Assembly: GCA_037951105.1 (NCBI GenBank)
Contig: JBAMJV010007664.1
Span: 47,752-111,751 of the forward strand
Reading direction: 5' to 3'
DNA: 64,000 nt
Source: Echinarachnius parma
Taxonomy: Eukaryota > Echinodermata > Echinoidea > Clypeasteroida > Echinarachniidae
A model generated the notes under the pieces. The model was not told where the DNA came from, did no database searches, and worked only from the letters and a program-made list of their open reading frames with translations. Made by a program: the position numbers and the translations under genes. Every line of letters starts with the position of its first letter. The stretch's first letter is position 1. Positions 10,005 to 25,635 of the stretch are shown here, in pieces.

Positions 10005-10133
10005 ATAATGGACATGACATTCAGATGGAATTACTGTCTCACAAAGAGGGGGTCATGGCGGAACCCTTCACGCTTCAGTGCCTCGACAACACAGAGCAGA
10101 AGGTGACGGTCATCGTACGAGCAAGAATACTAG
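10005..10133 (+). CDS. ADISSP: Internal exon of ADISSP (C20orf27, DUF4517) homologue
   Basis: The exon lies between a good acceptor (CTTTTTTCCTCCAG) and the donor CTAG|GTAAGA. It carries 43 codons, is entered after one base of a codon and is left after one base (phase 1 at both ends). The peptide runs NGHDIQMELLSHKEGV... and ends VTVIVRARILG. By recall it matches the C-terminal third of vertebrate C20orf27/ADISSP, around its SAHKEGVLKEE and VRVTVQARVM segments. That protein was renamed adipose-secreted signaling protein in mammals; its role in an invertebrate is unknown. Earlier exons (the conserved HVHFDEKLHDS region) were not found in 1-10,004 and probably lie upstream of the window. Family assignment is confident; function here is not shown by the sequence. 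Confidence 0.85.
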
Positions 10134-10460
10134 GTAAGACCACTGATCTACAAACAAAGATCTGGATGGATTAAGCCCCAAGTGTTGGATATGACTGTCT
10201 GGGTAATAAAGCCACTGATTTACAAACAAAAGCTGGATGGGTAATCTTTATATGAGCAAGAATACTAGGTAAAACCACTGATCTACAAACAAGATCTGGA
10301 TGGATTAAGCCCCAAGTGTTGGATATGACTGTCTGGGTAATAAATCCACTGATTTACAAACAAAAGCTGGATGGGTAATCTTTATATGAGCAAGAATACT
10401 AGGTAAAACCACTGATCTACAAACAAGATCTGGATGGATTAAGCCCCAAGTGTTGGATGT
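10115..10460 (+). repeat. Tandem repeat copying the ADISSP exon end and donor (~134 bp x 2.5)
   Basis: The unit starts inside the coding exon (GAGCAAGAATACTAG), includes the donor and about 115 bases of intron, and is repeated at about 10253 and 10387. Donor-like CTAG|GTAAAA therefore recurs at 10269 and 10403 after the genuine GTAAGA at 10134. Units are nearly identical, so the expansion is recent. Confidence 0.85.
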
Positions 10461-10479
10461 GACTGTATGGGTTCTCCTC

Positions 10480-11790
10480 GATATTCAAATCAATCCTCCA
10501 ACTCACACCATGTTTCTCTTTCTGAAAGTTTCCCCACTATCTCTTCACACGCTTGGGTCCTTTATATGACTGCAGCATTGTTGAATATATTGCCCTCTGT
10601 CCCAGCCTCCTTTATATGAACATCAATCTTCTAACTCACACTTTTTTCCGCTTTCCAATCATTTCCCACTACTATCCTTTTGAATGTTGTGTCGCAGTGT
10701 TAACTATATATCCCACCTCCTTACCTCCCCCGCCTTCTCGATATAAAAATCACTCACTTTTTTCCACTTTCCAAGTATTCCCCCCCCCCCCCCCAACTAA
10801 CCTCTTGATGAGCCTAGGTCAGTTTGTCTGTTACAATGTTACATAAACCTCCCACCCCGCCCCCGCCTCCTTGATATATGAAAAATCAATCTTCTAAAGT
10901 CTCACACTTTTTCCCACTTTACAGTCCTTTTCTCCCACTATCCTCTTGAAAAGGACTATTTGGGTCATGTTTGATTGTCGCAGTGTTATCACGTTTTTCC
11001 ACTTTCCAACCATTTCCCCTCCACTATCCCCTTGATGAGCCTATGTCATTTTACCCCACCACGATGTTGAATAACCCCTCTTCCCCTGACCTCGTTCCTC
11101 CCCCCCCCCCCCGACCCCCGCCTCCTTGATATATGAAACTCAATATTCTAACCTATACGTTTTTCAACTCTCCAAGTGTCCCCCCCCCCCAACTAACCTC
11201 TTGATGAGCTTTGGTCATTTTGACAGCCACATGTTTTTCCACCCTCCGAGGGTGTTTCCCTCGCTATCCTCTTGAGCCTCGGTCATTTTGACCCCCCCCC
11301 CCCCCCCCACCCCGCCTCCTTTATATGAAACTCAATCTCCTAACCCACATGTTTTTCCACCCTCCCAAGTGTTCCCCCGCTATCCTCTTGAGCCTAGGTC
11401 ATTTTGACTGTCACATTGTTAAATACCGAGCCCCCGCCCTCCCTCCTTGATTTGAAAATCAATCTTCTAACTCACATTCTTTCCACTTTCCAAGCATTTT
11501 CCCCCCACTTTACTTTCGGGAAGCTTTGTCATTTTGACTGTCACATTGTTAAATATATGAAAAATCGATCTTCAAACTCTCACTTATTTCCAATTTCATT
11601 TCCAACCCCACTTTCCTCGCGACAAGTTAATTCATTTGGACCTTCACAAGGTTGAATAAAATCAATGCCCCCGCCTCTGTGATATATATAAAAAAATGAA
11701 AAAGAAAAGAAAGATAAATCTTCTAACCCACACTTTTTTTCCACTTTCCAAGCGTTTTTCTCACTTTCCTCTTGACACACTCAAGTATGT
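10480..11790 (+). repeat. Degenerate tandem array in ADISSP intron, with C-runs
   Basis: About ten diverged units of roughly 120-150 bases. Each carries a TATATGAAAATCAATCTTCT-like piece, ACTCACAC, TTTTTCCACTTTCCAAG, a C-rich block and CTCTTGATGAGCCTAGGTCA. Several units hold runs of ten or more C (near 10780, 11100, 11180 and 11290). The pyrimidine-rich TTTTTCCACTTTCCAAG in each unit resembles a splice acceptor. No coding potential seen. Confidence 0.8.
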
Positions 11791-12221
11791 TGTGGCGTCT
11801 TGTCGAGTGTCGTCTTTGAGGAAGCCTTTCAATGAGACATCCCATTCAAATGACAAAGTCAGGGAGCCTCTGTTTGTACAGCCTCTCAGCAACAGAGGGC
11901 AGCAGACATACTATTCAAGGGTGCATTTATCAATTGATGGCTGTATTTTTGTCAATACTAGTTTTTGATCGTGATATCAGTTGAATTTATAGCGAGAGGT
12001 GTAGCATGGTCTGGCTAATTTTTTTTTTTTTGAGGGGGTGGCATGTTAATTTATGGGGGGCACATTCTACGTATTTCTTCATTTTAACAAAACAAAATAT
12101 AGATTTTTACCTTCAGGTTTCTATTGTTTTTGTCAAATAATATGATTTATTAATTTCACAACCTGAACAAAAAGGGGAAAACATCTAATTTTGAGGAATC
12201 TTTCCTTCTCTTCCTTCATAG

Positions 12222-12367
12222 GTACGGATCAGGGAAAGCTGATGCTGAAAGAAGACATACAAGTAGTCAACATGGGGCTTGAGGTGGAGGACCCTTCAAA
12301 AAGGGAGAGGCTTCTAAAACAAATTAAATCTTTAATCCACAATCTCCAAATAACATGTCTTATTTGA
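12222..12367 (+). CDS. ADISSP: ADISSP terminal exon, copy 1 (alternative or decaying)
   Basis: First of three tandem terminal exons. The acceptor is CTTCCTTCATAG. Joined to the exon ending at 10133, the frame stays open as GTDQGKLMLKEDIQVVNMGLE..., then runs on into KRERLLKQIK and stops at TGA 12365-12367, about 47 residues in all. Relative to copy 3 it has GTACGG instead of GTAAGG at the start, K for R and P changes near the front (GKLMLKED for GRPMLREG) and one extra codon. It lacks the acidic DSSDEESDQD tail. It is either an alternative last exon or a copy losing constraint. Copies 1 and 2 share the ERERLLK-type tail, so that tail belongs to the duplicated unit. Confidence 0.6.
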
Positions 12368-12397
12368 TTAAATATTTTCTTCTCTCTTCCTTCATAG

Positions 12398-12540
12398 GTA
12401 AGGATCAGGGAAGGCCGATGCTGAGGGAAGGCATAGTCAACATGGGGCTTGAATCAGAGGGTAGTTTAATAGAACGGGAGAGACTTCTTAAACCAATTAA
12501 TCTTCATTTCCCAATCTCCAAAAAACATGTCTTTTTCTGA
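12398..12540 (+). CDS. ADISSP: ADISSP terminal exon, copy 2 (alternative)
   Basis: Second tandem terminal exon, 176 bases after copy 1. The acceptor TTCCTTCATAG is followed at once by GTAAGGATCAGG. In frame it reads GKDQGRPMLREGIVNMGLE, nearly identical to copy 3 over the conserved segment, then SEGSLIERERLLKPIN and a stop at 12538-12540. The conserved part (GRPML, GIxNMGLE) corresponds to the GTPMLLDGVKCVGAELE segment of the vertebrate protein. Close identity to copy 3 in the codons used and in the upstream pyrimidine tract implies recent duplication. Use as an alternative last exon is possible but cannot be shown from sequence. Confidence 0.65.
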
Positions 12541-12570
12541 TGAAATCTTTTCTTCTTTCTTCCTTCATAG

Positions 12571-12674
12571 GTAAGGATCAGGGAAGGCCTATGCTGAGGG
12601 AAGGCATAATCAACATGGGGCTTGAGGCGGCGGACAGTTCGGACGAGGAGAGTGATCAGGATCATCACAATTAA
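12571..12674 (+). CDS. ADISSP: ADISSP terminal exon, copy 3 (probable canonical C-terminus)
   Basis: Third tandem terminal exon, 173 bases after copy 2. The acceptor is TCTTCCTTCATAG. It continues the frame of the exon ending at 10133 as GKDQGRPMLREGIINMGLE, then an acidic tail AADSSDEESDQDHHN and stop TAA at 12672-12674. The acidic, Asp/Ser-rich, His-containing end resembles the vertebrate C-terminus (EYDSEHSDWHGFD), which is why I take this copy as canonical. The intron from 10134 is about 2.4 kb if spliced here directly and is filled with tandem repeats. GTAAGG directly after the acceptor doubles as a donor-like sequence. Confidence 0.8.
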
Positions 12675-13187
12675 TTCATCCTCATCTCACGTCCTCCAAG
12701 ATTTTATTGAAACCAGTGCTGTAACCACCACAACCCCTCCAGCATCCAGCCAAGATATAGATCAGGACCATTCTTAGTTAAGACTTCAAATGAGGTCCTA
12801 GTCTCGATTTTGAGATCGTTGGACCTCTTTTTGATAATCAAGGACAGGTCTCGAGTCTTGGTGCAAGATCTTGGTCTACCACTAGGTCTTGGAACTCTCT
12901 AAATTAAGGACAATGTTCGACAAAAAGCAAGTCTTGGTATTGAATATATGAATAGATGTGACGTCACACACGGGTACTCTATTAAGTCAGCTGAAACTGT
13001 GTATCTGAGGAAACATTATCTATCCACATGTTTGTAGTTCAGTGGTCTCTCCGCACCATTGGTATGGATCTACACCACTGCCATCAATTTATGACTGAGA
13101 GAAGGTAAAGGAGGAAGAGGAGAAACAGGATGAAGTGACAGTAGAAGAAGAGGAAGATGAGATGGGAAGATGGGATTTTGTTTACAA
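12675..13187 (+). other. Probable 3' UTR and flank of ADISSP
   Basis: Follows the copy-3 stop. It contains no credible ORF. 12780-12905 has GA/TC-rich pieces built around GGTCTCGAGTCTTGG, and 13090-13180 is purine-rich (GAGGAAGAGGAG-like). The real polyadenylation site could not be fixed. Confidence 0.4.
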
Positions 13188-13700
13188 ATACAGTCAAACC
13201 TGTGTATAGTGTCTACCTAGTATGAAGGGAAACAAGCAATGTGGCCACTGAAGACAGGTGACCTCTACACACAGGTTCCATAACACTGTATTATTTCTCT
13301 GCAGGGGAACACTTTTTGTGGCCACTATAGGCAGGTTGGCTGCTGTAGACAGGTTTAGCAGTACAATACAAACACTGTCGAACTTGTGTATAGTGACCAC
13401 CCTCTGGGAACAAGGAAAGTGGTCACTATAGACAGGTGACCGCTATATCACCGCTTTCTCTGCAAGGGGTGAGTTGTCAGTGACCGATATAGGCAGATGG
13501 CTGCTATAGAGAGGTGGTCACTATGACAGGGTTGAGTGTACAGTCAAACCTGTCTTAGTGGCCACCTGTCTATAGCAGCCATCCTGTCTATAGTGGCTAC
13601 TAAACATGATCCCTTGTAGAAAAAAAAACAATGAAAATGAGCCCGTCTATAATAGAGGTCACCTGTTTACAGTGGTCACTATACACAGGTTTGACTGTAA
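13188..13700 (+). mobile_element. MITE family G, composite of repeated units
   Basis: Several ACAGTCAAACCTGT-type units in both orientations (13191, 13373, 13539, and inverse at 13683) around TATAGTGACCACC/GGTGGTCACTATA. It folds into a long hairpin. No coding. Confidence 0.7.
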
Positions 13701-14439
13701 CTGGTTTTTAGTTGCACAGAGTGAATAATCCTCAAAAGGACTATTGCTATTTCTGTATTTGATGGCTTGGAAAATACTGTTGCAGTATTGTTTGTTAGAA
13801 AGAAAAGAGACAAATTTGTAACATGAAATGGAAAGAAAGTGGCAAGTATTTTCTTTAGATAAACTGTTGGTTGTATGATTTCAAAAATATTACATCTAAT
13901 TGAAAATATTATACATTTCCGGTCAGTTTCCTTACGTTTTAAATAATGCGCCTACTCTGACATCTATTTAGTCCCTACAGAAACCAAAGTCCTAGGTAGA
14001 TTTTAACAAAATCTATAAAAGACAGTATAAATTTGATTTCTTGTCCTTTCGAGTAGTGAAGAGTCGGTTTGGAGTCATAACTCTATGCACTGTTACGCTT
14101 GAACGCTTGAATGTACACAAAAGCATGGGCTCATTGATAGCAAATGTAAATGTTTTTATATAATGCAGGTCATTGATACTTCCGCTTTCAAACATTTGTA
14201 TATCTGTCAAATTCTACATATTAGTAATGATTCAAATACTTGGATATAAATATTGTGTACACAGCTCGATATGCTTACACTACGCAAATATGTTTGTTTG
14301 TTTGTTTCTGTTAAGTGGTAAAAATATGTAACGTGGATCTCTTCACCATACAAATGAATATCTTTGAAAACAGAATTCTATGAAGAGTTTATTCTTGCCA
14401 TTTCAATTCATTTGCAAACCTCATATATAGTTTTCCTCA
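13701..14439. other. Unique AT-rich sequence
   Basis: No gene or repeat recognised. Confidence 0.4.
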
Positions 14440-14842
14440 GAAATGAAATTTCTGACTATTACCCCCAAAAAGATCATTATTTCCAAAAGTTTTCTTTCTA
14501 GTAATGAATGTTCTAAAAACTATCAGTCCACTGAGTGATGTGTGAAAATAACATTGTAAAGGAATATCATATGACCGAGTAATGAGCAAAAATGTAAATA
14601 GGTATTCGCTTAATAAATCATGCACCAACTTTGTACAAAGTTGAAATTCTCCACTAGAGATTTTCAAATCAGAACACTTCAATTATACATATCTTTATAA
14701 TGAAAGAGAAATTTGAAGAAAAAAAAAAACCTGTTCCATGCTTCTACTGGTAATGGGAATACAACGAGGTACATATGTGAGGACTGCTAGAGTTCTAAGT
14801 AAGTTTTGTGGATTTTGACAACGTTACCAAATCCCTTTGATT
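14440..14842 (+). mobile_element. MITE family A, diverged copy 3
   Basis: Recognised by GACCGAGTAATGAGCAAAAA, CACTTTG-type blocks, ATACATATCTTTATAATGAA and a GGATTTTGACAACGTTACCA end. The terminal TTAA has been lost. Confidence 0.6.
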
Positions 14843-15189
14843 TTAGATGTACTATGTATATTCTTCATATTGGTTGTGCGTGGTTACAGCACGTCTTTGC
14901 ACTTATTTTTTTAAGGTTGAAAGTTAGCCTATAATGCCATGTACGTGTAAAATGTAAATATTTTTGTAAGCACTATTCGTACGTAATCAAGATGTAGATA
15001 AAGTATGGAGATTTTAAAAATACAAACATAGTGTACAGACAGTATATTGATTATATTTGTTTGAATATGTTGGATAATTTGTTTTTAAATGGCACTGAGT
15101 GTAGTAACAGTAAGATTAAATATGCGGGATGAAACTACTGTCATAGTCATTGAAGTCATACAAAAACGGTATATTATGTTGGACTTGAC
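14843..15189. other. Unique AT-rich sequence
   Basis: Nothing recognised. Confidence 0.35.
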
Positions 15190-15610
15190 ACTACCACTTG
15201 CCCCATGGCCTTGGGCCAGTAAAATTTAATATTTAAGTAAAATTTTAGCGGCCCGGTTAAACTGACAAACACAGAATGAGAAATTCTTGTATACTTTTGA
15301 TGTCAAGCCTCATGTTTTGACCAATATACATGTAGTTTATTTCACGACAATTTTTTTTTTTTTTTAGTAGACAGATAGAAAAAATAATGTTATTTTCACA
15401 CAATCAACGTACAATTTTTGACTTGATGTTTCAAACATCTCCAATGTCCAAGCATATTCTTTCTCAGAAGTTGTACTGAATCTGATCGCTGTAATCAAAG
15501 ATTTATAGCAGAAAGTTTATAAATAATATGATATTTTGGGTTTCGGGCCATCAACCATTAAAGGAAAATTATTTTACTTGGCCGACAGGGCCACTAGCGT
15601 GAAAAGTTTG
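15190..15610. repeat. GGGCCAGTAAAAT-type repeat with inverted ends
   Basis: Left part CTTGCCCC..GGGCCAGTAAAATTT and right part TTTTACTTGGCCGACAGGGC are inverted around AT-rich DNA. Confidence 0.5.
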
Positions 15611-16472: not shown

Positions 16473-17616
16473 GAATAATTAGCATTATCTGATAGATGTA
16501 CACTAACATGTTTCTATTTAACGAGTATTTTATTAAGGAAATGTATCATTTACAGGAATGCCAGTTATGTACAAGACACAAGCCTGAAAACCAGAGCCGT
16601 TACATCTTATTTTTGTGGATTTTTTTTTAGAGTGAGTCTCTATTTTGGGTTGACCATATTAGCTTGAGTTCAGGCTTTTGCCTGAGAACTGGTTGATCCT
16701 GTATCTAAAGTGTTTTTGCAAAGAGAGTAGCATGTTTTCTGACCAGGGCCTAAATTAATAAGAATATGAATGAACATACATTCAAATATAAATGATCTTG
16801 TTCTTTTATGGTTTTTAAGTGAGCTCGACATGAAATTGAATGAGAAGAAAATTTGTTTAAAAGTGTGTTTCTTGTTTGAATTACATTTTAAATAGTATTC
16901 AATCTAAACAAGTTGACCTATGATATGTATTCACAATCCCCAAAGATAACTAACTTTTCTGTTTGATTTCTAGCTTTTGCTAGTATTTAATTTGTATAAT
17001 GTACATGTAAGTGGTATTTTCTCATGTACATTTTGTGATAGTATGGTAGTAACAAAGTTATGCAATACATACAACATATTTGATTTTTAACCTGCTCCCT
17101 TCGGGATTCTGAGCTCCCCATTGACTTTGTACATAGCCCATCCAGTTCCCGTAAGCAATGGGTCAAGTAACATGATCATGAATTCATTGATTTGGAGTCT
17201 GTTAATCATTCACTCGAGATATTTAAATCATTTCAAATTTCATTCAAATAGACATTAATGGAAAAGGTCCTCAGGACCAAACTTGTTTTTACTCAGAAAT
17301 GCTCACTTAAGCTGTATATATTGTTTGTAGGCTTCTTGAATTGGCATTATGTTGAAGTTTTATCCAGATTATACATTTGTTTGTACATATTAACTTCTAA
17401 GACTAAGACAATCTCTATTACAACTATTTTGTATTTTAAACAAAATGCACAAGAAATCACTATAACACATCATTATTTTTCTATGAAAATAATTGCCTAT
17501 TGTTTGAGTTTTACCTCTATTAAAAGTCTGTGAAGTATATAATCAGGTATAGTCTTGCAGTACTGTTGATAGTCTATTAAGCAGTCTTAACATTCCACTA
17601 GAAAATACAATGGAAT
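16473..17616. other. Unique AT-rich sequence
   Basis: No supportable gene. 17090-17165 has a short piece like the start of the H repeats (CATTGACTTTGTACATAGC, also near 137). Confidence 0.4.
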
Positions 17617-18010
17617 TACAGTCAAACCTGTTTATGGTGACCACCTAAGGGAAGAGAGATGAGTGACCACTCTAGGTAGGTGACCTCTATGGACAGGTTC
17701 CATTACACTGTTTTTCTCTGTGGGGGTATCACTTGTGATGGCCACTATGGGCAGGTTGGCTGCTATAGACAGGTGGCCACTATGCCAGGTTTGACTGTAT
17801 ATAGGGCTCTCTGGTCTTACAAAGTAATTTTGCTGCTACAAGCTTTATTCTTCTCTTTTGTTTACCCTTTTATAACAAGAACTCTGATACAGCAATTTAA
17901 TTTCCATGTTCCCAAGCTCATTTCAATGAGGTTCCGCTGTATAAATGATTTTTCGATCACACAAGCTTCTCGTTATAATGAGGTTCCACGGTATAAGGGA
18001 CTTTTTTATC
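17617..18010. mobile_element. MITE family G copy 3 and related CTATAACA/TTATAACG repeat
   Basis: 17617-17800 is bounded by TACAGTCAAACCTG and CAGGTTTGACTGTA (perfect inverted ends). It is followed by a GTTATAATGAGGTTCC-type unit (17920-18000), related in style to 21640-21975. Confidence 0.7.
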
Positions 18011-24674: not shown

Positions 24675-24885
24675 TTAGAGTAGTGAGCACTTTGCCTTGT
24701 CCTTGTAAGGGTTCTCCCCGGTGGGTGAGAGGCCCGTGAGGAGCATGTCGGAGGAGTGGTGCTTCTCGCAGTAATCCTTGAGGCTCTGGGACGCCTGCGA
24801 CACCAGCATCGGCTTCACCTCCGCCTCCATCTTCAGCTGCTCCACGACCTTGCGCATGTTCTGGTGGGACGACATTCTGCTCTGC
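24675..24885 (-). CDS. G protein gamma subunit (GNG5/GNG10-like), coding exon
   Basis: Heterotrimeric G protein gamma subunit, which binds G-beta through an N-terminal helix and anchors the dimer to membrane by a C-terminal prenyl group. The ORF is 24675-24875 (ATG at 24875-24873, stop 24677-24675), 66 residues, within the family's usual 65-75. Visible features are the first helix MSSHQNMRKVVEQLKMEA, then VSQASQSLKDYC, LLTG, ENPYKDK (the family's NPF/NPY motif) and the CAAX box CSLL, whose final Leu predicts geranylgeranylation. It is closest by eye to the GNG5/GNG10 type. The exon begins at 24885 after the acceptor CTTACAG, so a 5' non-coding exon lies upstream and was not found. The coding region is uninterrupted, whereas vertebrate gamma genes generally have a coding intron. 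Flanked by an array of partial copies upstream and a decayed C-terminal copy downstream. Confidence 0.9.
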
Positions 24886-24974
24886 CTGTAAGTAGAAGGT
24901 ATTAAGAAGAGAAAAACGGTAAGTACATGTAGTTGAACGAATAAAAAGTTTGAATAGATTGAACATTACAAGCT

Positions 24975-25071
24975 TTAGGTTTGGGACACCAGCATCGGCT
25001 TCACCTCAGCCTCCATCTTCAGCTGCTCCACGACCTTGCGCATGTTCTGATGGGACGACATCCTGCTCTGC
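24975..25071 (-). pseudogene. Gamma-subunit partial exon, array copy 2
   Basis: Starts at 25071 directly after an intact acceptor CTTACAG. ATG is at 25061. It reads MSSHQNMRKVVEQLKMEA EVKPMLVSQT and stops at TAA 24977-24975 (28 residues). Identity with the complete gene ends inside the VSQ codons, after which the sequence becomes CAAACCTAAAGCTTG. If spliced in, it would give only the N-terminal helix, without the C-terminal half or CAAX box. Confidence 0.8.
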
Positions 25072-25158
25072 CTGTAAGTAGAACGTATTAAGAAGAGAAA
25101 AAGTACATGTAGTTGAATGAATAAAGTTTAAGTTTGAACAGATTGAACATTACAAGCT

Positions 25159-25255
25159 TTAGGTTTGGGACACCAGCATCAGCTTCACCTCAGCCTCCAT
25201 CTTCAGCTGCTCCACGACCTTGCGCATGTTCTGGTGGGACGACATTCTGCTCTGC
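25159..25255 (-). pseudogene. Gamma-subunit partial exon, array copy 3
   Basis: Same structure as copy 2, with ATG at 25245 and stop at 25161-25159. One visible replacement is P to L (EVKLMLVSQT). Its acceptor, leader and upstream intron match the complete copy 1 better than its neighbours 2 and 4, showing that the array grew as a two-unit block. Confidence 0.8.
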
Positions 25256-25344
25256 CTGTAAGTAGAAGGTATTAAGAAGAGAAAAACGGTAAGTACATGT
25301 AGTTGAACGAATAAAAAGTTTGAATAGATTGAACATTACAAGCT

Positions 25345-25441
25345 TTAGGTTTGGGACACCAGCATCGGCTTCACCTCAGCCTCCATCTTCAGCTGCTCCA
25401 CGACCTTGCGCATGTTCTGATGGGACGACATCCTGCTCTGC
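25345..25441 (-). pseudogene. Gamma-subunit partial exon, array copy 4
   Basis: Same structure, with ATG at 25431, stop at 25347-25345 and acceptor at 25442. It shares with copy 2 the variants CTGATGGGACG, CATCCTGC and the shortened intron GAGAAAAAGTACATG. This makes 2+4 one type and 1+3 the other. Confidence 0.8.
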
Positions 25442-25552
25442 CTGTAAGTAGAACGTATTAAGAAGAGAAAAAGTACATGTAGTTGAATGAATAAAGTTTA
25501 AGTTTGAACAGATTGAACATTACAAGCTTTAGGTTTGGGACACCAGCATCGA

Positions 25553-25635
25553 CTTCAGAAGTTTGACTTCATCCTTGATCTTTAACCTGCTCCACCATCC
25601 TGTGCATGTTGTGATGGGATGACATTCTGCTATTC
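25553..25635 (-). pseudogene. Gamma-subunit partial exon, array copy 5 (oldest, frameshifted)
   Basis: Diverged copy with ATG at 25625 and CTGTTTACAG-like acceptor preserved as ATTTACAG. It reads MSSHHNMHRMVEQ and then shifts frame to a stop. An insertion encoding CTTCTGAAG-like sequence separates it from the shared ATGCTGGTGTCCC end. Probably the ancestral end of the array, no longer coding. Confidence 0.65.

Follow-up and report, generated by a model that had tools for sequence, protein, structure and literature searches.

Three tandem terminal-exon units in an ADISSP/DUF4517-like gene of Echinarachnius parma: a probable young duplication with one working copy and two decaying ones

Tandem exon duplications, including mutually exclusive terminal exons such as those of Drosophila pip, are described in an excerpt of PMC9013439, and excerpts of PMC8184009 and PMC8605326 deal with recursive splice sites, or ratchet points, in which a pyrimidine tract and AG are followed directly by GTAAG. 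Herein, an array of three terminal-exon-like units in the window, the whole 64,000-nucleotide stretch of Echinarachnius parma DNA that was analysed, is compared with both. As in the pip-type exons, so far as the excerpt of PMC9013439 describes them, homologous copies stand next to one another where the gene ends, and their acceptors here share one phase, as in functional alternative or mutually exclusive terminal exons. The array, known here from sequence alone, differs in that the upstream copies lose their open frames when two versions of the locus are compared, copies 1 and 2 being cut or frameshifted in the second version, so that an open frame and its ending are not kept by each copy. The likeness to the ratchet points of the excerpted PMC8184009 and PMC8605326 lies in the sequence motif, whereas here that motif comes from copied coding exon starts only a few hundred bases apart. 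The array looks like a young, mostly decayed case of tandem exon duplication. Among the papers listed on duplicated terminal or recursive exons, on the exon junction complex and on C20orf27, no title or abstract opening names a tandem terminal-exon array in C20orf27/ADISSP.

The three units lie on the plus strand, with first exon bases at 12222, 12398 and 12571 (spacings 176 and 173), and each consists of a CT-rich pyrimidine tract, a CATAG acceptor and an open frame with its own stop. Copy 1 comprises the tract and acceptor at 12187..12221 and the frame at 12222..12367; copy 2, those at 12363..12397 and 12398..12540; and copy 3, those at 12536..12570 and 12571..12674, the last position of each frame being the end of its stop. 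Since the upstream exon ends in CTAG/GTAAGA at 10133, every unit completes the split Gly codon in the right phase, giving frames of 48, 47 and 34 residues (split Gly included) for copies 1, 2 and 3, respectively. Tandem Repeats Finder reports an array at 12190-12640 with a period of 173, 2.6 copies and a score of 535, which excludes a chance resemblance of the units. The initial annotation, which had described three tandem units with tract, CATAG acceptor, correct joining to 10133 and separate stops, is thus confirmed on each of these points. With regard to the nature of the array, when 12150-12750 was searched as DNA against the whole assembly, at least two regions were returned, the locus itself and one on a second contig (C2726). 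A dispersed repeat is unlikely, two being the number (a lower bound) of regions among the matches listed, and a non-coding RNA was rejected, no Rfam family reaching its gathering score within the window.

The match on C2726 provides a second version of the region. In this assembly of 1.2 Gb in 14790 contigs, C2726 and about 81 kb of the window's own contig (C7653) are joined by 38 collinear segments, which amount to 64.8 kb of alignment at a weighted identity of 94.3% (chain of plus-strand hits above 150 bits, with C2726 examined over 231001 to 331000) and range individually from 75.9 to 99.5%. Most likely, this version is the second haplotype of an animal with very high heterozygosity, the alternative being a recent duplication. 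The chain also holds a 21-kb stretch (window 29591-50855) that is 99.5% identical between the contigs, where earlier chained window segments show about 83-95% and later ones 94.5-99.3%; one reading is a recently shared block. All three acceptors are intact in C2726, as they are in the window. It is very improbable that the array arose in part through misassembly of a genome that is heterozygous and rich in repeats: the two versions do sit in separate contigs, and a neighbouring array differs in copy number between them, but three acceptor units are present on both contigs, with substitutions that distinguish the copies.

The penultimate coding exon of the gene (10005..10133, plus strand; donor CTAG/GTAAGA, U1 pairing -9.4 kcal/mol) scores 31.7 bits by itself against Pfam PF15006 (DUF4517), and 70.9 bits when joined to copy 3, where the curated cut-off is 27 bits. 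We take this family to be that of ADISSP/C20orf27. When joined to the other window copies, the exon reaches 62.1 bits with copy 2 and 49.1 bits with copy 1, and the C2726 copies give 56.5 (copy 2) and 47.2 bits (copy 1). Copy 3 is the best and also the longest match of the three, extending to position 147 of the 151-position profile as compared with 141 and 139 for copies 1 and 2; the likeness of its acidic tail to that of vertebrates, put forward in the initial annotation, was gauged through this profile alone. In both versions, the N-terminal part of the domain (profile 1-50) lies some 26 kb upstream, with matches that also run across stops into the intron, and the piece 51-76 was not located. 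The joined peptide of exon and copy 3 retrieved no PDB chain up to an E value of 10. A 134-nt tandem repeat of 2.6 copies (10119..10472, plus strand) was also observed, in which the last 15 bases of the penultimate exon and its donor are repeated into the intron, so that donor-like copies can be read within it.

Comparison of the two versions separates copy 3 from the copies upstream of it. The copy 3 protein is identical in C2726, with one synonymous and no non-synonymous difference in 35 codons (stop included). Copy 1 of C2726 is ended by an in-frame TAG after 23 codons. Copy 2 carries a one-base insertion, which could be an assembly error; it shifts the frame after 12 shared residues to a new ending, GSSQHGA*, and the frame closes after 18 residues, counting the split Gly. 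The basic RERLLK tail, which the initial annotation had noted as common to copies 1 and 2, is indeed present in both in the window, but is absent from both in C2726. The proposed working system of three C-termini therefore finds no support in the second version, with copy 1 cut by the TAG, copy 2 frameshifted and the basic tail gone. It had been stated beforehand that variation of copies 1 and 2 between individuals would speak against such a system; as far as two versions show, they do vary, by the stop, the insertion and the lost tail, although their heads vary little.

Substitution counts add to this picture. Between versions, the penultimate exon shows two synonymous and no non-synonymous differences in 42 codons, and together with copy 3, three and none in 77 codons. 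Over the corresponding 230 bases, three differences stand against 9.1 expected at the flank rate (Poisson P 0.02), the latter being 35/885 in nine 100-base bins of 11781-13180, with the five array bins (12181-12680) left out. Copy 3 alone, with one difference against 4.1 expected (P 0.08), is not significantly slow, and the 3'UTR directly after it is also nearly unchanged. In the heads, 2 of 53 positions are substituted in copy 1, none of 56 in copy 2 and 1 of 56 in copy 3, and there are two insertions, one of 6 nt and one of 1 nt, one each in copies 1 and 2. The first two heads thus vary no more than that of copy 3, and no faster decay is visible there. Whole-frame counts (22/139 for copy 1, 19/129 for copy 2) were not taken as evidence of rate, since the tails look swapped between copies (by eye) and the alignment may join non-equivalent pieces. 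Together with an extra stretch of 78 nt in C2726, which contains a headless tail fragment, such swapped-looking tails are as expected of an unstable array. The intron ends differ at 1 of 35 positions before copy 1, 8 of 33 before copy 2 and 10 of 32 before copy 3, the tract and CATAG being retained in the last two. Between copies, the comparison suggested at the outset shows that, in the window, copy 1 is changed relative to copy 3, with six non-synonymous and no synonymous differences in 19 core codons (6-nt insert left out; six and one in C2726), and that the head of copy 2 is little changed, with two synonymous differences and one non-synonymous (Val/Ile) in 19 codons.

Altogether, we consider it quite probable that copy 3 serves as the working last exon, and that copies 1 and 2 are young pseudo-exons in decay, their acceptors still intact, lying ahead of a single common 3' end. 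The decay reading draws on the in-frame TAG of copy 1, the frameshift of copy 2, the loss of the basic tails and the changes of copy 1 relative to copy 3; against it stand the acceptors, intact in all three units of each version, and the heads of both upstream copies, which are nearly unchanged. The data do support a young tandem duplication of the ADISSP/DUF4517 terminal exon, with acceptors intact and copy 3 as the family-like one. In the proposed course of events, a segment of about 175 bp, which runs from the end of the last intron and its acceptor through the terminal coding exon into the beginning of the 3'UTR, would have been duplicated in tandem; 8 nt would then have been lost from the tail of one duplicate, and further copies would have been made of this damaged form, leaving the 3'-most copy (12571-12674) as the only one to keep the original coding sequence, stop and 3'UTR. 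Copies 1 and 2 would presumably be without function, and their acceptors, if used, would yield minor mRNAs with degenerate C-termini; such minor splicing is possible. As to the fate of these mRNAs, the idea that they escape nonsense-mediated decay was dropped on the strength of PMC8184009, an excerpt of which states that in invertebrates this decay does without the exon junction complex. If this reading holds, an early stage of tandem terminal-exon duplication has been caught, with two diverged versions available for comparison, and the retention of stop and 3'UTR by the 3'-most copy alone suggests why the upstream copies decay.

The origin of the basic tail is consistent with this order. In the alignment with copy 3, an 8-nt gap is common to all five upstream tails, namely those of window copies 1 and 2 and three tails of C2726, a count that includes the headless fragment. 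The acidic stretch is altered by substitutions in the upstream tails, and the frame shifts behind the gap. The first two window copies have the old TAA out of frame, and their reading continues into bases aligned with the 3'UTR of copy 3. Because the shared gap puts the old stop out of frame, the basic tail amounts to a shifted reading into the old 3'UTR, copy 3 being taken as the ancestral form on account of its Pfam match. Most likely, RERLLK is a by-product inherited through the copying of one damaged duplicate, and we infer the order of duplication, 8-nt loss and further copying.

The alternative that these are young regulated C-termini, with splicing choosing among three acceptors and giving acidic- or basic-tailed ADISSP, appears quite unlikely. 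It would account for the intact acceptors and phases in both versions, the window's two upstream frames, open for 48 and 47 residues, and the little-varied heads of copies 1 and 2, and tandem terminal exons such as those of pip are on record in the excerpt of PMC9013439. The C2726 copies weigh against it, one cut, one frameshifted and both without basic tails, as do the weaker Pfam matches of both upstream copies. The distribution of poly(A) signals, scanned for the two hexamers AATAAA and ATTAAA, points in the same direction. Over 12200-15500 of the window, AATAAA occurs once (14612) and ATTAAA at 12323, 12367 and 15115; over 266420-269500 of C2726, AATAAA occurs once (269410) and ATTAAA at 267365 and 268133. 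The window hexamers at 12323 and 12367 precede copy 2, while C2726 has neither hexamer between its copies, and none lies between copies 2 and 3 in either version. Since no hexamer between copies is common to both versions, transcripts spliced to copy 1 or 2 would probably reach the 3' end of copy 3, and the copies fit better as candidate tandem acceptors of one terminal exon than as separate last exons.

The bases that follow the acceptors raise a further possibility. Directly after the AG, copies 2 and 3 read GTAAGG, which together with the tract forms a recursive-splice-like site (pyrimidine tract plus YAG/GTRAG), and copy 1 reads GTACGG, which does not. The copies could then act as recursive splice sites used one after another: early splicing to copy 2 would rebuild a donor, CTAG/GTAAGG, and splicing from there to copy 3 would correct the first event, the duplicate erasing itself from the mRNA. 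We regard this ratchet-like removal as unlikely. Copies 2 and 3 are the sole sites of this pattern on the plus strand of the window, which has none on the minus strand, and again the sole sites on both strands of 100 kb of C2726, and 25.8 kb of C7653 upstream contain none; when the window is shuffled by mononucleotides, 0.14 sites per strand are obtained. The pattern was drawn up after the copies had been seen, however, and its rarity is descriptive. The predicted U1 pairing of the rebuilt donor is -9.9 kcal/mol, against -9.4 for the authentic donor; of 5000 random GT-centred 11-mers, 2.9% attain -7. According to an excerpt of PMC8605326, activation of ratchet donors may be the default for recursive exons without regulatory elements. 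On the other hand, the motif of copy 3 may simply follow from its coding content, a split Gly and then Lys, and have been copied along with the exon, copy 1 has the weaker GTACGG (-5.7 kcal/mol), and the exon junction complex is reported, in the excerpted part of PMC8184009, to repress rebuilt donors. If recursive splicing did operate, the first codons of the exon would themselves make duplicates harmless, allowing them to persist as raw material for new C-termini, and would yield a rule, readable from sequence, as to which duplicated exons can be tolerated.

Another tandem array occurs elsewhere in the window. At 24799-25625 on the minus strand, a gene that we presume to be G-protein gamma-like contains repeated units of an acceptor and an ATG exon. 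As in the ADISSP array, acceptor and exon are copied in tandem and only the 3'-most unit is complete, the others being frames of 18 or 28 residues. Unlike there, the duplicates are cut inside the coding frame, and five units in the window correspond to three in C2726, as counted by the pattern used. Furthermore, dispersed repeats built around CTATAGACAGGT / TGGCCACTATAG are present in both orientations at 473-668, 13189-13680 and 17614-17802 of the window.
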